This document shows, in pieces, positions 3,494 through 21,885 of a stretch of 32,127 nt of DNA (within the stretch, counting starts at the first letter, position 1; each line of letters starts with the position of its first letter). The position numbers and the translations under genes are program-made. The stretch comes from a virus. The DNA is taken from positions 1 through 32,127 of IMG/VR virus record IMGVR_UViG_3300009156_000067. The stretch is one strand, 5' to 3'. The notes beneath the pieces are model-generated. The model searched no databases and had not been told where the DNA came from. It saw only the letters and a program-made list of their open reading frames with translations.

Positions 3494-6349
3494 TCAGGCG
3501 GGCTGGTTCGTGTTCCCGCTCAGCCGCGGGTCGGGATTAAAGACCTTCGCCAGGCGAGCGGATCGGCCCATATCCCGGGAGAATTCAAAGGCCACCATGG
3601 TCCGCTGGATCCCCCACGTATGGGTGATCCGTTCCGCGTCCCCGATATCGTGGCCGCCGTCCTCGTCCGTCCCGCCGGTCGTATGGGCCTGGGTGTACTG
3701 TTCCGGCTCATCCGGGGGCCGCTGATAGAGGATCCCGGTCAGGTGGCGGGACTTGTCCCCGGTGGCCCACCAATCGGCCTCCCCGCGGGGATCGCTCGAG
3801 GTGTGGTTGTAGTCCGGCCAGCCCGTGATCCGCTCCGGGGTGAAGTGACAATAGACCAGCGCGTCCGATCCGAACGTCTGCCGGAGGGTCTGGGCGATCC
3901 GGAGGTGGGCGTCCCCGCTCCACGCGAAGTAGAGCCGGTTGCTATGCGGGCCCAGGGGGCTATAGCCGTGGGGGCCCGGCGCCAGGACGTGGCCCGTGGG
4001 CGTCCCCTCCGCCGACTCCCGGAGCCGCCGGATCTTCCGCATGAGGACATGGTGGGCCCGCTCCGCCGCGGTCTCCACCCCATGGGGGCGGGGATCCCAC
4101 GCCACCACGTCCACCGCCACCGGGGCCCCGGTCCCGCCTGGCAGGTTGCCGGTGGTCGAGCCGGGGGCCGTCTTGTCCCCGAAGCCGCTGTTAATCTGCG
4201 GGAATTCCCAGCCCGTGGCCACGATCCGGATCAGGTCCGTGAACTGACTCAGCCAATTCTTGATAAAGAGGTGGGCGTCATCCTCCGTATAGCCCGGGTC
4301 CCCGGGGAGCCCGTCCGTAATGCCGAACAGGACCACCACGCACCCGTCCGCCTGGGTCTCCGTGATCAGGTCCCGGAGGCCCTGGGGGTTCCGCCGGAAA
4401 TCAAATTGCGGCTCCGATCCGTACGCCCCCCAGGCCGCGAACGGGATATGGGTGAGCCCGGCCGCCTTGAGGGTCATGCGATAGGCGGCCCGTTTCTCCG
4501 CGGACCACCCGGGATACATGAACCCCCAGGTGTAGTTGGGGACGCCCAGAAAGGCGCCGTGGACCCGCCCCGCGAGCTCGATCGAGGGTTTACTCCCGGG
4601 AGGGGGGAGGACCGTCGCCGTCGATCCCGGCTCCGCCAGGAACACGGACCAGTCGTCCAGGCGGTCCCCGTTCACCCGGACCGCCCCGCCGCCGCCGTCC
4701 TCCGCCCAGAGATAGCCCCCGGTCCCCCGGATCGCGACCTCGCCGTCCGGGTCCACCTCGAGCGTGAAACACTCCCAGGACCGCCCGGCACTATCCCGCC
4801 CGATCGCCGTCCGGTCCGCCATCAGGAGCCCGGTATTCTGATCGGCCGACAAGTACATGCCGTTATCGGCCCGGAGCGCCACCGTCCCGTCCGCCTGGGG
4901 GACCGGGTGGAAGGACTCCCAGATATCAGGGATCCCCGTCCGGGTGGCGTTCACCTCCCGGCCGCCGCCGTTCTCCGCGCAGAACAGGAACCCGCTCTGG
5001 GTTCGAATCGCGAGCGTTTTGGGCCCCGCCGGCGGGATTGGCTCCGGGGGGACCGTGGCCGGCTGGACCGTCACGGCCCGCCGGGCCCCGGTCTGGTGGG
5101 TCCCCGCGTCGTTCACCCCGCGGGCGGCGATCAGCCAGACCCCCGGCTGGGTCCACCGGAACGAGTGATCGGGATCGGCGGGATCGTTACTCGCCACCAC
5201 CAGCCAGGGCGTCCCGGGCCCGTCTGGCCGGGTCAGCCACTCGATCCGTGCGAGGGGCCCGGAGCCGGTCTCGAGGCCGTAGACGGCCTTGCAGGGCTCG
5301 CCGCCGATCGTGACCGTCGTGGGGGTATAGGACGTGATCGTAATCTTGGGCGGTTTCATCGGTGGAGGCTCCGGATCGGGCGGTTTGGGGGGGATCGGCG
5401 TGACCGGGACGGGGACGCGGGTCCGGGGCGTGTCGGCCGGGACGTCCAGAATCCGGAGGACGGGCCCGATCGGCGCCACGTTCGCAAACGCCGCGATCCG
5501 GAAGAACGATCCGGCCGGGTCCGCCCAGACGTCGAAGGCGTCCCCCTGCGAGCGGAGCTCGAGACAGATCGCCCGATCATCGACCAGCCGCCCGTCCGGG
5601 GTGAGGGGCCGCCCGTAGACCCAGCCGGCCCCCGTGGGGTCATACGTGCCGCTCCAGGCCCACCGCGTCCCGTCCGGGGTCTTCACCACGGCCACCAGGC
5701 CCTCGGTCGCCCAGGGGGCCAGCGTGACGTCCCGCGGGGTCCCGTCCGGGAGCTCGAGGGCGGCCGGGCCGTAGTAGCCGAACCCGATCCACCCGTCCGC
5801 CGAGGTCCGCCAGAGGTTCGAGCCCGCCGGCCGGCCCCGCGTCCAGAGGTGGGACCCCGTGGGGAGGTCGAACCCGTGCCAGCGGTCCGGATTGCGATCG
5901 GCCACCACGATCGTCCGGCCGGCCGTGGGCCCGAGGCCGCCGTACTCGCCCGCGATCACCTGGCCGTTCATCGTCAGCCGCCAGCCGTCCACCAGGACCG
6001 ACGCCCAGCCGCCGGCGCCAGCCTCGCAGGTATTCCCCGCCGCCCGGCCCTCCGGGACCGCCACCTGGTCCGGGGTCCAGGCCGGCGCCCGGGCCCGCCA
6101 GAGCCGCGCCGTCCCGGGGCCCGTGGGTTGCCAGTAGACGATCGTGGCGGCGTCCAGCCAGCGGTAGGCGCCACACCGGCCGCCGGCCGGGAGCGGGAGG
6201 GGCCGGAGCCCGTCCGTGAGCGTCCAGACCGATCCCACCTCATCCCCGCAGACTACCGCCCCGTCCGGGCTGAACCGGGGATACCAGACATCCCCCCGGA
6301 CCTCGAGGTGAACCACGCCGGGGAGCGTTCGCCGCCGGCGGGCCGTCAT
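3494..6349 (-). CDS. Large multidomain tail protein with glycosidase-like C-terminus
   Basis: Protein of 951 aa. Residues about 1-300 show beta-propeller-like repeats (FSPDG, PDGTRWAW). Residues 316-335 are a Pro-rich linker. About 336-430 resembles an Ig-like domain. About 443-575 has three Gly/Asn-rich repeats like a fascin or beta-trefoil carbohydrate-binding module (FLFCAENGGG, MYLSADQN, YLWAEDGGGG). About 590-951 resembles a TIM-barrel glycosidase, with E715 (TGWEFPQ) as a candidate catalytic acid. The basic start MTARRRRTLP is not a signal peptide. The ATG overlaps the previous stop (ATGA). A tail spike or receptor-binding role that binds and perhaps cuts surface glycans is inferred from domains and location. 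Domain limits are by eye. Confidence 0.6.
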   Translation of the reverse strand: MTARRRRTLPGVVHLEVRGDVWYPRFSPDGAVVCGDEVGSVWTLTDGLRPLPLPAGGRCGAYRWLDAATIVYWQPTGPGTARLWRARAPAWTPDQVAVPEGRAAGNTCEAGAGGWASVLVDGWRLTMNGQVIAGEYGGLGPTAGRTIVVADRNPDRWHGFDLPTGSHLWTRGRPAGSNLWRTSADGWIGFGYYGPAALELPDGTPRDVTLAPWATEGLVAVVKTPDGTRWAWSGTYDPTGAGWVYGRPLTPDGRLVDDRAICLELRSQGDAFDVWADPAGSFFRIAAFANVAPIGPVLRILDVPADTPRTRVPVPVTPIPPKPPDPEPPPMKPPKITITSYTPTTVTIGGEPCKAVYGLETGSGPLARIEWLTRPDGPGTPWLVVASNDPADPDHSFRWTQPGVWLIAARGVNDAGTHQTGARRAVTVQPATVPPEPIPPAGPKTLAIRTQSGFLFCAENGGGREVNATRTGIPDIWESFHPVPQADGTVALRADNGMYLSADQNTGLLMADRTAIGRDSAGRSWECFTLEVDPDGEVAIRGTGGYLWAEDGGGGAVRVNGDRLDDWSVFLAEPGSTATVLPPPGSKPSIELAGRVHGAFLGVPNYTWGFMYPGWSAEKRAAYRMTLKAAGLTHIPFAAWGAYGSEPQFDFRRNPQGLRDLITETQADGCVVVLFGITDGLPGDPGYTEDDAHLFIKNWLSQFTDLIRIVATGWEFPQINSGFGDKTAPGSTTGNLPGGTGAPVAVDVVAWDPRPHGVETAAERAHHVLMRKIRRLRESAEGTPTGHVLAPGPHGYSPLGPHSNRLYFAWSGDAHLRIAQTLRQTFGSDALVYCHFTPERITGWPDYNHTSSDPRGEADWWATGDKSRHLTGILYQRPPDEPEQYTQAHTTGGTDEDGGHDIGDAERITHTWGIQRTMVAFEFSRDMGRSARLAKVFNPDPRLSGNTNQPA

Positions 6350-8055
6350 CCGCTCGTCCCCGTGACCGTGACCGTGTTCGTCCCCAGGGGGGTCTCGGCC
6401 GTCGAGACCACCGTGAGCGTGGACGTCCCCGCCCCCGTCACGGTGGGCGGATCGAAGGATTCACTCGTTTTGCTCGAGGCGCCACTGACGGAGAACGTGA
6501 CCGCCCCGGCAAACCCGCCGGAGGGCGTGACCGTCACCAGGTAGCTCGCCGTCTGGCCGGGCTGGATCGTGACCTGGGACGGGTCCACCGACAGGGCGAA
6601 ATCCTGCTGCTCGACACTCCGGCCCTCCACCAGGGTCGTAATGTTGAAGTACGCCGAACAGGTATGTTGGAGGCCGGCACTGGTCCCCGTGACCGTGATC
6701 GTGTTCGTCCCCACCGGGGTGGACGCACTGGTCGCGATCGTGAGGGTGGCCGTCCCCTGGCCCGCGACCATGGGCGGATCGAAGGTTTCGGACGTCCCGG
6801 TGGAGGCGCCGGCCACACTGAAGTTGACCGAATCCATAAACCCGCCGACGGCCGTCACCGTGACGCGATACGTGGCGGTCTCCCCGCTCACGATCGTCTG
6901 GCCCACCGGGGAGATCGCGATCGCGAACTCCGGTAGCAGCGCGGGTTGATCCGTGACCAGGAGCTCCGTGGTGGTGGCGTGCGAGATCGGCCCGGGATCG
7001 GGGCCAGGGTCCGGCCCGGGGTCCGGCCCGGGTTCTGGCTCTGGCGGGACCGGAATCCCTTCCCCGCCGCCCGCGAGCGGGACGCCGGCGGAGCGCCGGC
7101 CGTCCGGATCCGTCACATACACCCAGGCCGCGGCCCCGTCCGCGATCGCCCCCCGGTTGACGGTACAGGTGATCGCGCCGTCCGCCCAGGCCGTGGCCGG
7201 CTGGTATTCGAGCGTGGTACAGCCCTCCCAGGTGGGGGCGTCCCCGAGCTCCACGCGGGCCCAGGTGTCATCCACCACCACGTCCGCATAGTACAGGGGC
7301 ATCGGGCCGCCGGAGTACCCCCAGGAATCCCAGAACCCGATCACATAGGGCCGCTTGTCCTGGTGGCCGCCGCTATCGCTGCTGACGTTCGTCAGGACCG
7401 CCCGATCGTCCAGGATCGGGGTCTGGTCCACCCAGATCCGGAACACGCCGTCCGGGGCGTCCACCGCGGAATTCTCGCCGTACTCCGCCCGGAAGTGATG
7501 CCAGGCGTTCAGGCTAAAGGTCTGGTCCAGCCACGGGACCCCGTGGATGTAATCGTCATCACAGGATCCTTCGTGCTCGTACGCCCGCCGCCAATTCATA
7601 TTGTCGAAGCTATGGAGGACCGCGTCCACGTTCGTGTAGTTCGAGCCGGTGGGGAAAAACCGGACGATCTTGATATTGGCCAGGCCATCGTCCCCGCCGC
7701 CGTGGCCGGTGGTCCCCCAGTGCCAGGTGTCGGGGAGATAGACCCGCCACGACACATACCACCGGGGGGCCGTCCCCGCGTTGTACTGGAAGGAGCACCA
7801 CTGGCCGTCCGATCCGGAACTCTTGCTGTAGTCCGCCTGGGCCGCATGGGTCCGCCGCGGCCGGACCACCGCGGTCTGGTCATAGACCATCTCGCCGCCG
7901 GACGCATTGTTGGTCAGGGCGGAGGACTTCCGGCCGCCCGCGAAGGTCTCCCAGACCAGGGGGGCCGCCGTGGGTTTCGCGCCAAAGCCGGCCCCGGTCA
8001 GGGTCAGGGTTCCCCCCTCCGCCGGGTTTCCGCCGATCGTCTCAATCGTAGGCAT
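6346..8055 (-). CDS. Lectin/lyase-like tail protein with two Ig-like repeats
   Basis: Protein of 569 aa. Residues 3-25 look like an IPT/TIG-type start (GGTLTLTGAGFG). About 35-275 resembles a jelly-roll polysaccharide-lyase or lectin fold (WHHFRAEYG, DGVFRIWVDQ, YYADVVVDDTW). Residues 337-356 are a (DPGP)n linker. Residues 376-459 and 485-569 are two Ig-like repeats of the kind common in secreted and virion proteins (TATYRVTVTAVGGF / TASYLVTVTPSGGF). The chosen ATG at 8055 has GAGGGGG just upstream and overlaps the lipoprotein gene by 14 bp. A longer reading from 8169 would overlap that gene more and lacks domain support. It is probably a virion adhesin; enzymatic activity is not shown. Confidence 0.65.
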   Translation of the reverse strand: MPTIETIGGNPAEGGTLTLTGAGFGAKPTAAPLVWETFAGGRKSSALTNNASGGEMVYDQTAVVRPRRTHAAQADYSKSSGSDGQWCSFQYNAGTAPRWYVSWRVYLPDTWHWGTTGHGGGDDGLANIKIVRFFPTGSNYTNVDAVLHSFDNMNWRRAYEHEGSCDDDYIHGVPWLDQTFSLNAWHHFRAEYGENSAVDAPDGVFRIWVDQTPILDDRAVLTNVSSDSGGHQDKRPYVIGFWDSWGYSGGPMPLYYADVVVDDTWARVELGDAPTWEGCTTLEYQPATAWADGAITCTVNRGAIADGAAAWVYVTDPDGRRSAGVPLAGGGEGIPVPPEPEPGPDPGPDPGPDPGPISHATTTELLVTDQPALLPEFAIAISPVGQTIVSGETATYRVTVTAVGGFMDSVNFSVAGASTGTSETFDPPMVAGQGTATLTIATSASTPVGTNTITVTGTSAGLQHTCSAYFNITTLVEGRSVEQQDFALSVDPSQVTIQPGQTASYLVTVTPSGGFAGAVTFSVSGASSKTSESFDPPTVTGAGTSTLTVVSTAETPLGTNTVTVTGTSG

Positions 8056-8281
8056 GCCGATCCCCCTCGTGTTTCTCGTCGTGCCACCGCTCCGGGGCGC
8101 ACGTATAACCACAAAATCCCTGGGGACAGTCGCGCCCGACCAGGATCCGCACCGGGAACCCGTCCCCACACATCATCGACCGCGGGAGCCGCCGCATCAC
8201 CTCCCGCCTGGCCCCGCCGCCCGTGGCACACCCGCCGAGGAGCGCCAGGAGGACGAGCAGCCCGGCCCCCCGGGGGATCAT
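8042..8281 (-). CDS. Small lipoprotein
   Basis: Protein of 79 aa with a classic lipoprotein signal: basic MIPRG, hydrophobic LLVLLALL, and lipobox LGGC with Cys18. The mature part is short with further cysteines (C38, C51, C56, C61; DCPQGFCGYTCAP) that could form disulfides or bind metal. The ATG overlaps the stop of the previous gene (ATGA), fixing the start. It lies within the tail-fibre gene run. An outer spanin (Rz1-like) or a superinfection-exclusion lipoprotein are possible roles. Neither is demonstrated, and no Rz partner was recognised next to it. Confidence 0.7.
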   Translation of the reverse strand: MIPRGAGLLVLLALLGGCATGGGARREVMRRLPRSMMCGDGFPVRILVGRDCPQGFCGYTCAPERWHDEKHEGDRHAYD

Positions 8282-12598: not shown

Positions 12599-15500
12599 CT
12601 ACGCCCCGATCCCGTAGGGGGCCATCACCCGGGGGATATGGCGGGCCGTGGAGCGGGCCAGGACCTCCCCGTCTACCACCACGGAGGCATTGACGGAGAG
12701 CGCGGACCCCTGGACGTCCGCCGAGAACGTGGGGAGCTCCGGGAAGTCATCGATATTGAAGGTCACCGGGATCTCGATTGTGGGCGTTTTAATGTTGTCC
12801 AGCGCGGTCTGGACGCCCTTGGCGCCGGTTTCCGCCCCGGCCACCATGTCCTTGGTGAGGACGTCGATCAGTTGGCCGATCCGGTCCACCAACTCCTGGA
12901 TCGCGCGCACCTGTTTATCGCCACTATCGCGGAACTGATCCCCGACGATCCCGGCGGCCTCCCCCTCGTCCAGGAGCTTCTGGGTAGCCTCGTCCACCGC
13001 GTACCCGTGATCCTTGGTGAGCTCCCAGACCCGTTGGAGCGGTTTCTGGATGAGGGCCAGCCCGGCCGCTCCGCCCTTGCCCATACTGACGAGCTCATTC
13101 CAGGTATTCGTCACCTCGCCGGCGAGGCCCGTAAACATCTCCTGGGTCAGGGCGCCGGTATTGGAGAGCCCGACCAGGAGATCGCCGAGGCCCCCGATCG
13201 CCTCGAACAGCGGGCCCGACACGGCATCGGACGCAAAGGCCGCCATGGTGGAGAGCTGGCCAAAGGCGGCCGACCCCGTGAAGCCCGTGACGGCGAGCTG
13301 CTGGGTGAGCGCCGCGATCGAGGGTTGGAGGGCCTGGAGGGCCTGGCCGGCGGACGCCCCCTGGCGCTGGAGATCCGCGAAGATCGCCCCGATCGCCGCC
13401 GTCGCCGCCGTCGCCCCGGCCTGACTCTTGAGGGCGGTCCGGCCAAACAATTCCATCGACAGCCGGGCCCGCTCCGCCGGATCCGCGATCCCGGCCAGGG
13501 CCGCCTGGAGTTTGTCGAACGCCTGCTCTGGCGTCAGGTCCTTTAATTTGTCGAAGGACAGGCCCAGCGTTTCCACGGCCGCCTTGGTCGATTTGCCCCC
13601 TTGGTCCAGGACCGTCCGCAAGTGGGCCAGGGCGTTCCCACTGGACGATACGAACGCCTGCAGCCCCTTCGCGGCGTTGTCGGTTTGCTCCTGGAAGAAT
13701 TTGAACGCCACGGCCACCTGCTGGGGTTGCAGGGACGTCCCGATCTTCGTCAATTCGTCTCTGAGCTCTGGCGTCAGGAGGGCCCCCCGCGCCGTCAGCG
13801 TGTCCAGGGCGGCCCCGAGCTTGTGGGTCTGGCGTTCCGCCTCCGCCATCGCGTCCGCGTACGCCACGGCGGCCGCTTTGGCACTCCCGATCTGGTTGGC
13901 CTGCAGGAGGCTGTCGAGGGCCTGGAGGGCCGCCGTATTCCCCTCCGCCGCGTCCCGCATCGTCTCGAGGCCACCGCCGGCCAAGAGGATCTGTTGGCGG
14001 AACTCGCCGGCCTGCTTCGCGGTCCCTTGCAGGAACTCGCCGAGCGCTTGCCCGAACCCCGACAGGAACAGGCTCACGAGCGGGCCGGCGAAGCTCCCGA
14101 CGATCCCGCCCACCGTCTTCCCGACGGCGCCCCCAATCCCTTCGGCGATCTGGGTGGACAGGACCTTCCCGATCTGCTGCCCGAGGGTCTGGCCGAGCCC
14201 GGCCCCAATCGTCCGCCCCACGTCCGCCGCGCTCGCCCCCTCCAACGCGTCGATCAGCCCCCGGCCGATCGTCTCGCCGATCTCCCGGCCGAGGTGTTCA
14301 AACGCTTCCAGCCGGACGAGGCGGGCCGCCCGGTCCAGTTCTTCCTGGACGGGGGCCGCGATATTCGGGGCCGCCCGGCCGCCAAAGAGCGCGTCCCACG
14401 GGAGTTGTTGGATCCCGACGATAAAGCCCCGGACCGCCTCCCCGGACGCCTGGAGCGCCGGCATCAGGGTGGCCGTGAGGTTCTGGGCGGAGAGGATGAT
14501 CTGGTTATTCCACTTAATCCATTCCGGGCTGACCTCCTCGCCGAGCCGCCGGGCGTTGTCGATCGCGGTCTGGAGGACCTGTTGAAATTCGCGGAGCTTG
14601 CTGGGATCGATCGAGAGCCCCTGCCGCTCGATTGCCTCGAGGACCTGGAGGAGCTCGTTGGCCTTTTGGCGGGCCCCCCGCCCGGTGGCCGCGTCGAGCG
14701 CTTTCTGGAACGCCTCAAAGGCGGTCGTGGCCTTTTTGAGGGCCTCGTCCGTCTCGTCGCCGAACTCCCCGATCGCCTTGCGGGCTTTCTTGGTGTTCCG
14801 CTCGAGATCGGCCATGGTCACGCCGGCCACCACGCCGAGCTCCGGGAAATCCTTGAACTCGAAGAGGGCGTCTTGGACTTCCCGGCTGAGCTCCCGGGCC
14901 GGGCCGGCAGTGGCCGACAGGGCCGCGGCCATGTCGTTGAGCCCCTCGATGACCGGCCCCATGCCCAGGGCCATCTCATGGTGCGCCTGTTGCGCGATCA
15001 CGAGCTCATCGGCCAGGGCCTTCCACTCCGCGGCCGCCGCCGCCGCCGCCTCCCGCTGGGTCTCGCTTTTCGCCTCGAGCGCGATCCCGCGGTTCGACAT
15101 TTCCATGGCCCGCGCAATCGCGATCGCGACGAACTCCATGGTCGAGGCCACGCCCGCCCAGCTCTGCACCACGAACCCCGCCGCCCGCACGGCGATCGCG
15201 GCCAGTTCAACAAAGGCCCGCGCCAGTTCCCGGGCTAATTCCTGTTGTTCGACCCCCACGGCCTCAGCGATCGCCGCCTTGAGATCGCGGGCGGCCAGCA
15301 CCAGATCGCGGTCTGTGAACGCCCGCCCCAGCTCGTTGATGAACGTCCCGGCCAACTCCGTGGTCGTGGTGATCAGATCGTTCAGGAGCGGGAGCATGGG
15401 GGCGAGGGCCTCCGCAATGAACGCCCGCCCCTGGAGTTTGAGAATGTCGAACTGATCGGCGAGCTTGGCCGCCGCCGCGATCGTTTCGGTCGAGATCACG

Positions 15501-16381
15501 ATCCCGAGCTGCCGCGCCTGGGCCACCGTCTGGGCCATCTCGCCCGTCAGGGCGGGGAGCAGCTCGAGGCCCTGTTTGCCGAAGATCTCGACGGCCCGGC
15601 GGGCCTTTTCCGCCGGATCGGCGATCTTGCCGATCGCATCGGCGGCCTTGATAAAGAGCTCGTCCGGCGCGAGTTGGCGGAGCTCGGCGACACTCAGCCC
15701 GACCTTTTCCAGGCCGCGCACCACCCCCTTGTCGCCGGCGACGAGGGCCGCCCCCAATTTCGTCGTCGCCTGGGTGACACTGTCCAGCGAGACGCCGCTT
15801 TGCTCCGTCGCGAACGCGAGCTCTTGCAGGCCCGTCGTGGTGATCCCGGTTTTCGCCTCGAGGTCCGCGAGATGATCGGCAAAGGCGATCGTATCGGTCA
15901 CACTCGCCGCGATCGCACTGCCCAGGCTGCGGACCGCGTCCGCCAGGAGGTTCCCGACGGCCGACGCTCCCGTGAGTTTGAGAAACGAGACGCCCATGGC
16001 CTCCGTTTCTCCCGCCGCCTTGCGTTGACCTTCCTCGAGGGCCTTGAACTCCCCGGCCAGCTTGGCAATCTGCGGGGGGACCGCCTGGCCCAGTGCCGTG
16101 TACTTGGCGATCGCCTCCGTGATCGTCCGGTTGGCTTTCGCCTGTTCCGCTTCCGTGAGCTTGGTCGCCCCGCCGATCTTGTCGATCGCGGCCGCGACCG
16201 TCGTCGCCTCCTGGAGGATCCGGTCCCCAGAAAACCCCGCACTCATTTTCTGGAAGGCTTTGGAGGCCGCCTCCGCTTCCTTGGTGACCTGGTCGATCTT
16301 GGAGGCCGCGCCCCCCATCTGTTGCTCGAACTGCGACAGGGCCGCGGTCAGCCGGACGGTCAGGGTGGCAATATCGGCCAT
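12599..16381 (-). CDS. Tail tape measure protein
   Basis: Protein of 1260 aa, by far the longest helical protein here, rich in Ala, Gln, Leu and Glu with long coiled-coil stretches. The N-terminus (TVRLTAALSQFEQQM) is typical of tape measures. Residues about 735-790 form a Gly-rich hydrophobic region (VGGIVGSFAGPLVSLFL) likely to act in membrane passage. Residues 215-280 and 915-985 are related repeats sharing a L-x-P-(D/E)-(E/Q) segment, then IADPAE(K/R)AR and E(I/L)FG. At about 1.5 Angstrom per residue the tail would be near 190 nm. It follows the tail chaperone genes as expected. It ends TAG, 3 bp before the hub GTG. Confidence 0.93.
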   Translation of the reverse strand: MADIATLTVRLTAALSQFEQQMGGAASKIDQVTKEAEAASKAFQKMSAGFSGDRILQEATTVAAAIDKIGGATKLTEAEQAKANRTITEAIAKYTALGQAVPPQIAKLAGEFKALEEGQRKAAGETEAMGVSFLKLTGASAVGNLLADAVRSLGSAIAASVTDTIAFADHLADLEAKTGITTTGLQELAFATEQSGVSLDSVTQATTKLGAALVAGDKGVVRGLEKVGLSVAELRQLAPDELFIKAADAIGKIADPAEKARRAVEIFGKQGLELLPALTGEMAQTVAQARQLGIVISTETIAAAAKLADQFDILKLQGRAFIAEALAPMLPLLNDLITTTTELAGTFINELGRAFTDRDLVLAARDLKAAIAEAVGVEQQELARELARAFVELAAIAVRAAGFVVQSWAGVASTMEFVAIAIARAMEMSNRGIALEAKSETQREAAAAAAAEWKALADELVIAQQAHHEMALGMGPVIEGLNDMAAALSATAGPARELSREVQDALFEFKDFPELGVVAGVTMADLERNTKKARKAIGEFGDETDEALKKATTAFEAFQKALDAATGRGARQKANELLQVLEAIERQGLSIDPSKLREFQQVLQTAIDNARRLGEEVSPEWIKWNNQIILSAQNLTATLMPALQASGEAVRGFIVGIQQLPWDALFGGRAAPNIAAPVQEELDRAARLVRLEAFEHLGREIGETIGRGLIDALEGASAADVGRTIGAGLGQTLGQQIGKVLSTQIAEGIGGAVGKTVGGIVGSFAGPLVSLFLSGFGQALGEFLQGTAKQAGEFRQQILLAGGGLETMRDAAEGNTAALQALDSLLQANQIGSAKAAAVAYADAMAEAERQTHKLGAALDTLTARGALLTPELRDELTKIGTSLQPQQVAVAFKFFQEQTDNAAKGLQAFVSSSGNALAHLRTVLDQGGKSTKAAVETLGLSFDKLKDLTPEQAFDKLQAALAGIADPAERARLSMELFGRTALKSQAGATAATAAIGAIFADLQRQGASAGQALQALQPSIAALTQQLAVTGFTGSAAFGQLSTMAAFASDAVSGPLFEAIGGLGDLLVGLSNTGALTQEMFTGLAGEVTNTWNELVSMGKGGAAGLALIQKPLQRVWELTKDHGYAVDEATQKLLDEGEAAGIVGDQFRDSGDKQVRAIQELVDRIGQLIDVLTKDMVAGAETGAKGVQTALDNIKTPTIEIPVTFNIDDFPELPTFSADVQGSALSVNASVVVDGEVLARSTARHIPRVMAPYGIGA

Positions 16382-17165: not shown

Positions 17166-17831
17166 TTAGGCCCGCTCCCGGCCTTCCCGGCCCGATCGCT
17201 CCCGGGCCGCCAGCGCCCCCGGGGCCGCCCCGGCCGCCCACGCGGTCCCGTCCCAGTGGACGGACTCGAGGGCCGCGGTCCGGACGTACTGGCCGGCGGT
17301 CCAGGCCGAGGTCGGGCTGGCCGTGACGCCCGTCATTCCCGCCAGGTCCGCCGGCGCCCCGGATCCGCTGGGCGTATAGGCCCCGGGGATCCCGGCCGTG
17401 GCGCCCGTGGGGGCCGACAGGGTGTCAGAGGTGCGGGTCACGATCTTGATCTCGAGGGTGAAGGTGTAGAAATCATCCACCCCGGCCGTGGGCCCGATCA
17501 TGTACCCCACGTTACAGTCGCCCGTCCAGACCAGCCCGCCCACGGCCGTCCCCATGGGCCCCCAGGCGTAGGGGACCCCGGTCTGGCCCTCGATCGGATC
17601 CAGGAACTCCTGGGCCGCCGGGCTCCAATAACCCGTCAGGGTCACCGCCCGGGCCGGATCGCCCTGCACCCGGTAGCGCCGGGTGAAGGTGTCGCCCACG
17701 AGCTCCTGGGTATCGACGGCCGCGTCCACGTTGTTGAAGAACACCGAGACGTCGGTCACGGGCCCGGCGCCAGGGGCCTCCCCCAGCGCAAAGTAGGTTG
17801 GAAACGCCGCCACTGGATAATCAGAAGCCAT
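17166..17831 (-). CDS. Major tail (tube) protein
   Basis: Protein of 221 aa placed between the tail terminator and chaperone genes, where siphoviruses encode the tube protein. The fold is beta-rich (DVSVFFNNVDAAVDT, YTFTLEIKIVTR) with a single helix-like region, as in tube proteins. An Ala/Gly-rich C-terminal extension (about 165-221) with a charged end (ARERSGREGRERA) may be exposed on the tail surface. The start overlaps the zinc-finger gene by 11 bp. Identification rests on position, size and beta pattern rather than a catalytic motif. Confidence 0.75.
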   Translation of the reverse strand: MASDYPVAAFPTYFALGEAPGAGPVTDVSVFFNNVDAAVDTQELVGDTFTRRYRVQGDPARAVTLTGYWSPAAQEFLDPIEGQTGVPYAWGPMGTAVGGLVWTGDCNVGYMIGPTAGVDDFYTFTLEIKIVTRTSDTLSAPTGATAGIPGAYTPSGSGAPADLAGMTGVTASPTSAWTAGQYVRTAALESVHWDGTAWAAGAAPGALAARERSGREGRERA

Positions 17832-18012
17832 GGATCGTCCCTTTCCCGGCGGCCACCCAGTGACCGCAGATCGAACATTGATACCGATCGGGACCGCCCC
17901 GCCGGGGGACCCGCGTCACCCACTCGTCCGGATGCGTACACACCGGCCGATCCCCTTCCACCTTGGCCGCGATCGCCAGCAGCCACTCCGCCACCCAGGC
18001 CCGTACGCTCAT
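17821..18012 (-). CDS. Small zinc-binding protein
   Basis: Protein of 63 aa with candidate zinc ligands C25, H27, C46, C49 and H51 (PVCTHP, YQCSICGHW). The N-terminal 20 residues form one amphipathic helix (WVAEWLLAIAAKV). The ATG overlaps the stop of the tail terminator gene (ATGA) and its own stop overlaps the tail tube start, so it is embedded in the operon and translationally coupled. A role in virion assembly or regulation is possible but nothing specific can be read. Confidence 0.65.
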   Translation of the reverse strand: MSVRAWVAEWLLAIAAKVEGDRPVCTHPDEWVTRVPRRGGPDRYQCSICGHWVAAGKGTIHGF

Positions 18013-19067
18013 GCCACCGCCTGCCCCGTCGCCCAGGTCCGGATCCGGAACGTGAGGATCTGGGAGAACAGGAGGACCCCATCCTCCACCGCCGGGGTGG
18101 GGCCGTCCGAGACCACCGCCGTCAGGATCCCCGGGCTCCAGGCCGGCGCCAGATCGAGCCGCGTCTGGTCCAGGAGCTCGAACACGCGATGGGTCAGGGC
18201 CTCGAGGGCCGCCAGCTCCGCCGCTTCCACGACCAGGGTCAGGGTCACGTCCCGGCCGCCCCGCCGGAATTGGTTGACCGGGCTTTCCCCGGCCACCGCA
18301 TACGTCAGGAAGGGCACCGCCGCCCCCTGGGGGGCCACGGGCGCATAGAGGGCGGGTTCGCCGCCCAGGAGCGCCAGGAGGGCCTCATCGGCCAGGAGCC
18401 GGGCCACGACCGCCCGCCGGACCGTCCCGAGGGCGGAGCCGGCCCGGCTCCCGACCGTCCCGGCCGGGGGAACGGGCTCCGGGGGGACCGTCACCAGATC
18501 GCCGCCGCTCCAGTCGTCCAAGGCGTTGTTGTCGTACTCCCCGATAAAGAAGATCCCCGGCTGGCCGGTAGTCAGACGATCGGCGTGGGTGTCCACGTAC
18601 GTCGTGACGAGCTCATCCCCGCCGACGCCGCTATAGGCCCGGAGGGTGACACTGGCGCCCGTGGTTTCCACCTCGAGGCGGATCCGATCGCCGGCGGAGA
18701 CCACCCCGGCCCCGCCATACGCCAGGAGCGTGGAACTACCCGCCACGATCCGCTTGATCTCCCACCCGTTATCCGGGGGCTCCGGGGGGGCCGCGCCGAA
18801 CCGATAATGGGTCACCGCGGCCAGGGCCGCCCGCACGATCACCCCGCATTCCGGGCCGGCAATCGACAGGGCCGCGATCCGGGCGTCCGCGTACTGGTCC
18901 GCGCCGAACGTCGCCGCGTTCCACACCCCAACATTCGGCCCGGACGTCCCCAGCGCCCCGCACGCGTAGGCACTGATCCGCGTCCGGAGGGCCCCCGCGG
19001 GGACGGTCCAATTCGGGCCCAGCCCGGGGCCGTCCGGCCGGTTGAAATCGTCGGAGGCCGTGGCCAT
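18009..19067 (-). CDS. Lectin-like domain fused to tail terminator
   Basis: Protein of 352 aa with two parts. Residues about 1-190 resemble a concanavalin/LamG-type jelly roll: a D-D-F-N-R-P-D-G start, YADARIAALS, then IRLEVETTGASVTLRAY and DDWSGGDLV, as in many glycan-binding domains. A Pro-rich linker at 194-203 leads to 215-350, which matches the DUF3168 tail-terminator pattern (VRRAVVARLLADEALLALLG, PFLTYAV, FELLDQTRLDLAP, FRIRTW). The terminator ring caps the tail tube. Tail terminators are normally about 130-150 aa, so the N-terminal addition is unusual. The single open frame without gaps argues against an assembly artefact. It follows the gp10-like gene with TGATG overlap. Confidence 0.75.
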   Translation of the reverse strand: MATASDDFNRPDGPGLGPNWTVPAGALRTRISAYACGALGTSGPNVGVWNAATFGADQYADARIAALSIAGPECGVIVRAALAAVTHYRFGAAPPEPPDNGWEIKRIVAGSSTLLAYGGAGVVSAGDRIRLEVETTGASVTLRAYSGVGGDELVTTYVDTHADRLTTGQPGIFFIGEYDNNALDDWSGGDLVTVPPEPVPPAGTVGSRAGSALGTVRRAVVARLLADEALLALLGGEPALYAPVAPQGAAVPFLTYAVAGESPVNQFRRGGRDVTLTLVVEAAELAALEALTHRVFELLDQTRLDLAPAWSPGILTAVVSDGPTPAVEDGVLLFSQILTFRIRTWATGQAVA

Positions 19068-19567
19068 CAGCCGCCCGCCGATCCGCGGTTATAGGCCACC
19101 AGGGCGGCCTCGATCGCCGGGCCCCGCCGGAGCAGGGCGGACACAAACCAGCCCGAGGCCCCCTGGAGGGCCGGCCGGAGAAACGGGTGGTAACTGCCCC
19201 ACCCCCGCCGCCGCTTCATCGGGAATTCCACCGCCTTGATCCCATACACCCCGGGATTGCGGTGGAAGGTGTTCCGGCTCCCCCGACTGGCCAGATCAAT
19301 ATCCCGGATCCCCACCCGCCGGGTGAGGGACGTCGCCCGGCCGACGACGATCACGTTCCGGGGGAGGTCGCCACTCGAGCGCCCCCGCCGGGTGACGGAC
19401 GCCCGGGGGGCGCCGGACGCCGCCCGGCTCCGGACCATGTCGGCCGCCTCCCCCACCGCGCCCGCTAATTCCTTGCGGACCACCTGGGGGATCGCCTGCA
19501 TGGCCGCCCGGAACAGATCGGCCCCCTCGAGGCCGAACGAAAAGACGTCGCCGGAGGTCTTGGCCAT
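19067..19567 (-). CDS. HK97 gp10-like head-tail/tail component
   Basis: Protein of 166 aa. The N-terminal helix (DLFRAAMQAIPQVVRKEL) and the C-terminal signature HPFLRPAL match the HK97 gp10 family of neck or tail-completion proteins. The middle is basic (TRRGRSSGDLPRN) and contains a GVYGIKAVEFP strand. It sits between the head closure gene (2 bp away) and the tail terminator, exactly where this family is encoded. Acts in virion assembly at the neck. The family assignment is good by motif and order. Confidence 0.8.
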   Translation of the reverse strand: MAKTSGDVFSFGLEGADLFRAAMQAIPQVVRKELAGAVGEAADMVRSRAASGAPRASVTRRGRSSGDLPRNVIVVGRATSLTRRVGIRDIDLASRGSRNTFHRNPGVYGIKAVEFPMKRRRGWGSYHPFLRPALQGASGWFVSALLRRGPAIEAALVAYNRGSAGG

Positions 19568-19569
19568 GG

Positions 19570-19920
19570 TCAGGGGACCGTCTGGGTCATTTCCGCCAGG
19601 GTGAGCTCGAGCCAGGCCAGCGAGCCGCCGGTGTCGGGATCGATCTGGACGATCTCGAACCGCCGCCCGTCCGCCCCCGTGATCCGGTCCGTGAGTTGGA
19701 GATCCCGCGGGAGCCGGCCGCGGTAGATCCGGACCCGGGTGGTCCGGTGCGATCGCTGGGCGTGGGGGTCCAGGCCCTCGATCCCGCCGGCCGGGAGCTC
19801 CTCCGCGGCGATCGTCCCCGGGAGAGGCGTATAGGTCCAGACCTGGCCGCCGGCGCCGTCCGTCGTCCGGACGCCCCGTTCCACCGTGAGCCGGGCCCGA
19901 AACGATCCGAGGTCCGGCAT
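19570..19920 (-). CDS. Head closure / head-tail adaptor protein
   Basis: Protein of 116 aa starting MPDLGSFRARLTVERG, followed by beta strands and the motif RVRIYRGRLPRDLQLTDRI and DGRRFEIVQI, the usual pattern of SPP1 gp16-like head closure proteins. It seals the portal channel after packaging and joins the tail. Neighbouring genes are the connector and the gp10-like protein, 1-2 bp apart, as in HK97-type phages. Confidence 0.8.
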   Translation of the reverse strand: MPDLGSFRARLTVERGVRTTDGAGGQVWTYTPLPGTIAAEELPAGGIEGLDPHAQRSHRTTRVRIYRGRLPRDLQLTDRITGADGRRFEIVQIDPDTGGSLAWLELTLAEMTQTVP

Positions 19921-19921
19921 C

Positions 19922-20539
19922 TCAGCCGCTCCCCCAGCCGGTGGTCACCCAGTGCCCGGTCAGATCCCAGTGGCCGGTCAGATCTCCCAGGACCGGGCGG
20001 AGCTCCACCCGATAGGGGACGAGCAGGGCCGCCACCTGGTAGGGGAGGCCGTACTCCGGCCCCGTCGCGGTCCCCTGTTGATAGCGGAAGAACCCGTCCC
20101 GGACGAGCTCGAGGATCGCCCGGACCACCGGCGCCGGGACGTCCTCCGGGGCCGCCGGCCCGACCGTATAGGCCACCGTGAGGCCGCCGACGGGCTCGAG
20201 GGGGCCACGTGGAACAATCCACCGCAGGCGGCCCGGGACCCCCCAAACCCCGATCCCCTCCACCACGTACGCCGCCGGGTCCACCAGGGTGGCCACGCCG
20301 CCCAGGGGGACCTCTGTCACCGTTTCGACACTGGCGAGGGGGGCCCCGGGGAGCGGGGTCACCGCGCCCACGGGGCCATCCACCACCAGCGTCGTGGCCG
20401 CGGCCGTGAACGTCTGGCCCGTATAGGTTTCCGCCTGCATGCGCCCGGAGACAATCAAGAGATCGATCAACGGATCCTGATCGTCCAGGTCATACAAGAG
20501 GACCTGTTTGGCAAACGCCAGCGTCACGGGTTCGGCCAC
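19922..20539 (-). CDS. Head-tail connector (gp6-like)
   Basis: Protein of 205 aa. The start (LAFAKQVLLYDLDDQDPLIDLLIVSGRM) is the helical opening typical of gp6/gp15-like connector proteins that form the ring under the portal. A beta-rich middle and a helix (PAPVVRAILELVRDGFF) follow. The C-terminus carries a tandem repeat DLTGHWDLTGHW, produced by an 18-bp direct repeat at 19948-19965 and 19966-19983 with one mismatch. It lies 20 bp downstream of the capsid gene. The extension is unusual for the family. Confidence 0.75.
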   Translation of the reverse strand: MAEPVTLAFAKQVLLYDLDDQDPLIDLLIVSGRMQAETYTGQTFTAAATTLVVDGPVGAVTPLPGAPLASVETVTEVPLGGVATLVDPAAYVVEGIGVWGVPGRLRWIVPRGPLEPVGGLTVAYTVGPAAPEDVPAPVVRAILELVRDGFFRYQQGTATGPEYGLPYQVAALLVPYRVELRPVLGDLTGHWDLTGHWVTTGWGSG

Positions 20540-20559: not shown

Positions 20560-21885
20560 CTAGCGCCGATCCCGATCGTCCCGGCCGGCGGGTTCGTTCC
20601 GGCTGGCGGGTTCATTCCGGCCGCCGGCGGGGCCGGAGCGCGTGCCGAGCGCCGGCGCCGTGCCGAGCCCGTCCACGATGCCGAACGCCGCGGGCGTATA
20701 CCAGACCGCCGCCTCCCGGATCTCCACCCGGATCACCGTGATGTTCTTAATGAAGAAATCGGCGTGACTGTTGGTCAGGGTGACCCGGACGCCGCGCTTG
20801 CGGAACAGTTGCGAATTCGTGGCAAACGCCCCCACCACCGCCGTCCCCGCCGTCAGGGCCGGGGTGGCGATCGTCTCGAGGCCCCAGATCCGGAACGGGA
20901 GCGGGGAACGATCGAAGGGGACGCCCGGGGTAATGAAGGTCCCCATGGCGGACTGGGTCAGCAGGAGCGCCGGCAGGGCCGCCGGGTGAATCGCGATCCC
21001 GGTGGGCATAAAGCCCGAGCTGGCGTAAATCGCCATGTACTGCTCGAGGATCGCCGCGGCCACCGTAGCACTGTCGCCCGTGACCGTGGGGGCGAGGCCC
21101 GTCAGGGTGGTCACGCCCTGGAGCTCGCCGGCGGTCCCGGTGCCCTTGATGAGTTGGCGGTCCTCATCGATAAACAGCATGTTGATCAGGAGGTTTTCGA
21201 GGACCGACTCCACCGCCGGGACGTCCTCGAGGAGCTGATCGGGGACCTGAATCCACCCGGCGATCGTCTCGACCGGGACGATCTTTTGGGTGATCGCCAC
21301 CACCGGCTCCACCTTCGCGGCCCCCTTCGCGGTCTGGGCCATGCTGGCGGGCTGGGTCCCCACGATCTCGACGTACGGGACCGCGCCCGCGTCCGTCGTC
21401 CCCTGGGCCATGAGGCCGGCCACCGTGGGCCGCCGGGGCGCCATCGGGGCAATCGTCGCCGCCGGGAGGGCGACGTCCGTCGCCGCCGGGACGTCCGGAT
21501 AGCCGATCAGGGCTTTGGCCTCGAGATCGAGGTCCAGCGAGATCGTCCCCCGGGCGGCCTTGTAGGTGGCAAACGACGGGGACTCCACCACCCGCCGGCT
21601 CCACTTCTTCACCTCGCCGGAGCCCAGGAAGGGGGCGCCGGAGAGCGTGGGGACGCCTTTCTGGCCGGACGGCGGGACCAGGCCGGCGAACTTCTCGCCA
21701 AACGCCAGGGACTCCCGCTGGGCCGTGATCCGCTTCCCCATCGCCTCCGCTTTCGCCTGGAGGTCCAGGAACCGCGTCCGTTCCCCGTCCGTCAGGTCCC
21801 GGTTCTCCGTCACGGCCGCGTCCGTGAGGCTCTTGGCCTCCGTGATCGCGTCGTGGAGCTCGTCGTAGATGGTTTTGGCACTCAT
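20560..21885 (-). CDS. HK97-type major capsid protein
   Basis: Protein of 441 aa. Residues about 1-100 form a helical coiled-coil delta domain (LTDGERTRFLDLQAKAEAMG) that serves as internal scaffold and is normally removed by the prohead protease. The remainder has the HK97 fold pattern, including an E-loop region, WIQVPDQLLEDVP, MLFIDEDRQLIKGTG and the P-domain GIAIHPAALPALL. The C-terminus carries two RNEPA repeats and a charged end (GRDDRDRR) beyond the usual fold. It follows protease and portal genes, and CGGAG lies upstream of the ATG. Firm by fold pattern, size and order. Confidence 0.92.
   Translation of the reverse strand: MSAKTIYDELHDAITEAKSLTDAAVTENRDLTDGERTRFLDLQAKAEAMGKRITAQRESLAFGEKFAGLVPPSGQKGVPTLSGAPFLGSGEVKKWSRRVVESPSFATYKAARGTISLDLDLEAKALIGYPDVPAATDVALPAATIAPMAPRRPTVAGLMAQGTTDAGAVPYVEIVGTQPASMAQTAKGAAKVEPVVAITQKIVPVETIAGWIQVPDQLLEDVPAVESVLENLLINMLFIDEDRQLIKGTGTAGELQGVTTLTGLAPTVTGDSATVAAAILEQYMAIYASSGFMPTGIAIHPAALPALLLTQSAMGTFITPGVPFDRSPLPFRIWGLETIATPALTAGTAVVGAFATNSQLFRKRGVRVTLTNSHADFFIKNITVIRVEIREAAVWYTPAAFGIVDGLGTAPALGTRSGPAGGRNEPASRNEPAGRDDRDRR

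Follow-up and report, generated by a model that had tools for sequence, protein, structure and literature searches.

The window analysed here, meaning the whole stretch of DNA (32,127 bases of an uncultured virus record), carries a normal tailed-phage module on its minus strand, in which genes for a terminase, a portal and a protease accompany those collected in Table 1. The genes follow the standard order of capsid, adaptor, stopper, gp10-like protein, terminator, presumed tube protein and tape measure, and it is at the terminator that a single frame joins a jelly-roll domain, a short linker and the terminator domain itself.

Table 1. Features of the fusion gene and of its neighbourhood in the window.
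Feature	Position	Strand	Basis or remark
Tape measure protein	12599..16381	-	PHROG 8462 E 5e-15, PHROG 9483 E 4e-14 (tail length tape measure)
Probable major tail (tube) protein	17166..17831	-	By gene order, after the terminator and before the tape measure
63-aa ORF between terminator and presumed tube gene	17821..18012	-	Start overlaps terminator stop (ATGA)
Fusion gene: jelly roll (CBM/receptor-binding type) + linker + tail terminator	18009..19067	-	352 aa, single ORF
Tail terminator domain, residues 208-352	18012..18446	-	Pfam, AlphaFold2, RcGTA structural match
Pro-rich linker, about residues 194-207 (VPPEPVPPAGTVGS)	18447..18488	-	Sequence; low-confidence start of C-terminal model
N-terminal jelly-roll domain, residues 1-~193	18489..19067	-	AlphaFold2, structural matches, PHROG 2804
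HK97 gp10-like / Neck1, upstream neck gene	19067..19567	-	PF04883 E 0.0012, just under cut-off; PHROG 5 E 0.0065
Head-closure (stopper) protein	19570..19920	-	PF05521 E 5.6e-9; PHROG 25 head closure Hc1 E 6e-7
Head-tail adaptor	19922..20539	-	PHROG 442 E 6e-20
Major capsid protein (HK97 fold)	20560..21885	-	PF05065 E 1.3e-23; PHROG 10 E 4e-31

The presumed tube protein had no family match by sequence. Its residues 142-216 make up a C-terminal module of about 75 aa (PADLAGMTGVTASPTSAWTAGQYV...HWDGTAW), two tandem copies of which occur, at 49% identity, in another phage's 294-aa protein (L153); it probably represents a second kind of decoration module on the virion. The 63-aa ORF bears a zinc-ribbon-like pattern (CxH...CxxCxH) and had no match in PHROG. 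Elsewhere on the minus strand, a 607-aa tail-region protein (6346-8169) has a possible jelly-roll-like N-terminal part and ends in two similar Ig-like repeats of about 80 residues (FAIAISPVGQTIVSGETATYRVTV and FALSVDPSQVTIQPGQTASYLVTV), and a 951-aa protein (3494-6349) includes at residues ~455-520 a weak fascin/DUF7910-like (beta-trefoil) stretch (E 9e-5, below cut-off) which is possibly another sugar-binding part at the tail end. The plus strand encodes a tyrosine integrase (62-1219; PHROG 1, E 1e-24), and the phage is therefore probably temperate.

Reading frame and domains of the fusion gene

The gene runs from an ATG at 19067 to a TGA at 18009 and is open throughout its 352 codons with no frameshift, its ATG overlapping the stop of the upstream neck gene by one base (TGATG) and its stop overlapping the start of the next ORF downstream (ATGA). 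Across residues 185-243 the sole ATG, GTG or TTG codons are GTG192, where the jelly roll ends, and GTG221, which falls inside the terminator's first helix (modelled by AlphaFold2 at residues 212-226); no ribosome-binding site was seen at the right spacing before either. As read from the DNA, the gene has no usable internal start ahead of the terminator and constitutes a single translation unit, and the single fused protein of the original prediction is upheld, with its coordinates exact. GC3 is high in the N-terminal half (0.88), the linker (0.93) and the C-terminal half (0.93). The linker is short (~15-20 residues), and its region at the start of the C-terminal model was predicted at a pLDDT of 52-61 (AlphaFold2). 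The halves were folded separately, a joint full-length alignment (A4) having been discarded with its C-terminal rows misplaced.

The N-terminal domain was modelled from 12 sequences as an all-beta structure (AlphaFold2, pLDDT 87.0, pTM 0.87). Its best structural match is the C-terminal domain of the Douge central-fibre protein (CFP-CTD, Z 22.1), followed by the receptor-binding domain (RBD) of TM4 gp23 (Z 19.6), the C-terminal lectin domain of galactocerebrosidase (Z 19.1), the CBM of Douge BppU (Z 18.7) and a bacterial CBM66 (Z 18.6), with legume lectins ranking lower (Z about 15); the matches at Z 22.1, 19.6 and 18.6 span 159-189 residues. Foldseek places CBM66 first (E 1.9e-7), and among the BFVD viral models the closest that carry a name are minor tail proteins, tail fibre proteins and putative receptor-binding proteins. 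By sequence, the domain matches PHROG 2804 ('virion structural protein', E 1.3e-4), as do all 12 of the 12 members of its family alignment. The window's own domain matched no Pfam family, and a PDB sequence search with its A5 profile gave no match of note; single members of the alignment weakly match PF23918, PF21708, PF13385 and PF06439. When the profile was built without the window protein, its sole match among the 350 window ORFs was the fusion (E 1.7e-34, residues 1-195). On the modelled structure, the fold is a jelly roll of the phage receptor-binding/CBM66 type, and the lectin-like jelly roll of ~190 residues that had been proposed at the N-terminus finds its counterpart in these matches to glycan- and receptor-binding domains. 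A likeness of fold does not alone show function, a point which counts against reading the domain as an adhesin.

The C-terminal half matches PF11367 (Tail_completion_gp17, formerly DUF3168) over residues 218-308 (18144-18416) with E 1.2e-7, scoring 32.3 bits where the curated cut-off is 24.5, and a terminator profile built without the window matched only this half among the 350 window ORFs (E 1.4e-5). Its AlphaFold2 model (ten sequences, pLDDT 80.7) is most similar to the RcGTA tail terminator 6tba_4A (Z 16.7, 130 of 134 residues aligned, rmsd 2.5; Foldseek E 7.4e-7), which the terminator profile also reaches by sequence (E 0.0024). After RcGTA come the terminators of SaPI1, phiCD508, Mu, T5, lambda and others, those of T5, Mu, SaPI1 and lambda at Z 11-14. 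For nearly all of the 50 PDB terminators listed, the alignment starts within the first few residues and meets the model at residue 8-22 (full-length ~202-216). This argues that the terminator half is complete and that all residues before it are extra, although the resolved ranges compared may hide disordered N-termini. The larger terminators listed also match from their very beginning, which places their additional segments internally or at the C-terminus. The DUF3168 domain expected in this half is borne out, and on its model the half is a complete tail terminator. The gene product, as modelled, is a terminator to which a carbohydrate-binding-type jelly roll is covalently joined at the N-terminus.

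Occurrence of the fusion and of its parts

Relatives of the N-terminal domain were found by viral-contig scans in 12 other contigs (29-35% identity) and, in addition, in one bacterial genome, in each case aligning over the same ~190 residues; an N-terminal SDxF, Arg79 and a C-terminal DxWSxxD are invariant among them. Their settings are diverse. Some are free proteins of ~190-208 aa, in three contigs (L012, L014 and L015) the domain is followed by repeat regions, in another (L011) by parts of no recognised identity, and in L004 its gene sits between capsid and adaptor-type genes. The cultured Gordonia phages Cleo and Tiamoceli carry members of the same sequence family (PHROG 2804; Cleo gp28, Tiamoceli gp38) as free 234-aa proteins in or adjoining the minor-tail region, unlike the terminator-joined domain of the window, and in neither the 12 contigs nor the Gordonia phages was the domain found joined to a terminator. 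The bacterial relative, in a Candidatus Doudnabacteria genome (L061, 4908-8912), heads an apparently secreted protein of ~1300 residues with an apparent signal peptide, in which FN3-like repeats come after the jelly roll and the C-terminus is dockerin-like.

For the terminator, a sample of 65 distinct cores was drawn from scans with the capsid and with the terminators of related phages, and in 65 of 65 the start codon falls at the onset of the terminator domain. Long frames before the terminators of L025, L045, L039, L097, L128, L134, L136-L138, L140 and others were considered and rejected as fusions: what precedes the terminator in them is the upstream gene read off-frame, rich in Arg, and a start codon lies at the terminator. 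No second ORF matching both the N-domain and terminator profiles was found in the viral contigs sampled or in a single genome scan that used the N-domain pattern, a survey that is a sample and not a census. The whole fusion protein had no relatives among 50,697 phage records, and the terminator half alone, as query, none in the viral contigs. The two closest capsid relatives (L016 and L018) have no detectable PF11367-type terminator within the stretch examined, and as such they are uninformative about the fusion. Both have a different tail module, yet identity between the capsids is 39%, which suggests a probable exchange of head and tail modules.

A terminator with an N-terminal lectin or CBM was not found in the open-licence literature, and a covalent union of CBM and terminator is absent among the solved terminator structures listed. 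The fusion is a rare domain transplant, seen once in our sample, and having no second example, it draws no support for a function from conservation. Both halves are of known kinds and neck-borne CBMs are known; the covalent union with the terminator is the new element.

Proposed neck display and possible role of the jelly roll

Sugar-binding modules of phages are spread over capsid, tube, neck and tip, and the terminator ring is usually regarded as purely structural. The fusion resembles the PF11367 terminators (RcGTA Rcc01690, lambda gpU, SPP1 gp17, T5 p142) in a sequence match above cut-off, in its full fold and in the placement of its gene between the gp10-like gene and the presumed tube gene (a tube by position), but those proteins begin at the terminator domain and here ~207 residues come first. 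The N-terminal domain shares its jelly-roll fold with phage surface domains (Douge CFP-CTD, the Douge BppU CBM and the TM4 gp23 RBD) at a sequence identity of 13-17%. In Douge these domains belong to the tail tip, in fibre or baseplate, and have been shown to bind host glycans, whereas the window domain is predicted at a neck ring and is like them by fold only.

The lactococcal NPS proteins (936 group, TP901-1) offer a parallel at the neck, in that the fusion, too, would place CBMs there in multiples of six for weak, ancillary adsorption. Of the NPS traits, the fusion has the carbohydrate-binding-type module (by fold). The NPS hallmarks of a BppU-like N-terminal ring domain and a trimeric coiled coil are absent, and neither model contains a helical fibre segment: an NPS is a separate protein of 500-900 aa with a BppU-like ring domain and a coiled-coil fibre, whereas the fusion consists of a CBM-type domain, a short linker and a terminator. 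Extra outward neck parts are also seen in the Ig-like domain of the R4C adaptor and the neck decoration proteins of phage 812. The former is carried on the adaptor and the latter are separate proteins, and both have been proposed to stabilise and not to adhere.

Terminators are hexamers located between stopper and tube (PMC7296036, PMC11784142), and because homologous terminators form hexamers, six copies of the fusion per virion are to be expected. The terminator half would form a ring capping the tail beneath the stopper, as in RcGTA, T5 and lambda, with its N-terminal helix at the outer, head-side edge. Given that helix 1 of the RcGTA terminator, at its N-terminus, contacts the stopper (PMC7296036), and that the main terminator helices of R4C are peripheral (PMC10276861), a linker at this place should run outward and lead each jelly roll away from the ring, such that six would surround the neck. 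The linker being short and a coiled coil lacking, they would hug the neck and not form long whiskers; the 'whisker-like' function suggested at the outset is not quite right. In such a position the jelly rolls may bind host-surface or environmental glycans, weakly and multivalently, and this may aid reversible adsorption alongside the adhesins of the tail tip, a role also proposed for the neck-borne sugar-binding modules in lactococcal phages.

We infer both the display at the neck and the binding of glycans, for which there are precedents. The Douge CFP (as a construct of tip and CTD) and BppU CBM proteins, when expressed, bound M. smegmatis cells and LAM/AM glycan fragments (PMC13033339), and the CBM of the lactococcal neck passage protein binds host cells with low affinity (PMC6669499). 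This neck-CBM precedent favours ancillary adhesion, and on models and analogy we regard it as reasonably probable, and as the best explanation, that ring-borne jelly rolls around the neck provide ancillary glycan adhesion. That a tail-tip-type receptor-binding domain has moved onto the terminator, in a first case of a one-gene, covalent crown of six glycan-binding domains by which the terminator itself would become an adhesin, may hold or fail with about equal chance.

The main rival casts the jelly roll as structural decoration or as an assembly aid, its sugar binding lost or irrelevant; it would either brace the junction of stopper, terminator and tube or keep the terminator soluble and unstacked until the tail is complete. 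It owes this rank to the neck decorations argued to stabilise and to a result with T5. The terminator decoration proteins of phage 812 are thought to reinforce the neck (PMC12886913), and the Ig-like domain of the R4C adaptor is argued to serve local stability and, given its place beside the head, was considered unlikely to take part in adsorption (PMC10276861), which also counts against the adhesion reading. So does the finding that the T5 terminator stayed monomeric with an N-terminal tag (PMC11784142), as in some terminators an addition at the N-terminus may impede ring formation. Furthermore, CBM66 has been studied as a fusion partner in heterologous protein expression (PMC8715580). However, the nearest structural relatives of the domain are receptor- and glycan-binding domains and not known neck braces, the Pro-rich linker is probably flexible and fits display better than bracing, and 65 related terminators work without such a domain; we consider a structural or assembly role rather unlikely.

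It is more doubtful still that an adhesin-type gene recently inserted ahead of the terminator lost its stop by accident and has merely been tolerated, or that the N-terminal half is trimmed by a protease in the virion. The single instance in the sampled viral contigs and one genome scan speaks for such an accident, but the jelly-roll fold is complete, with nothing missing between its first and last strands, the linker resembles those commonly seen between domains, the start codon is tied to the gene upstream, and the codon-position GC is that of a maintained gene. Last, it is highly improbable that metagenome misassembly or sequencing error joined two genes. The sequence is an uncultured virus record, and no close relative turned up in the collections searched, but a spurious junction would need to preserve the reading frame, introduce no stop, produce a plausible linker and keep the TGATG and ATGA overlaps as well; no two-gene version was seen.

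Should the neck display and glycan binding of the ring-borne jelly rolls be confirmed, the N-terminus of a terminator would be seen to tolerate a cargo of ~20 kDa in six copies, and the virion would gain one more site for ancillary adsorption. The benefit that binding at the level of the neck may bring to adsorption would then become a testable question.
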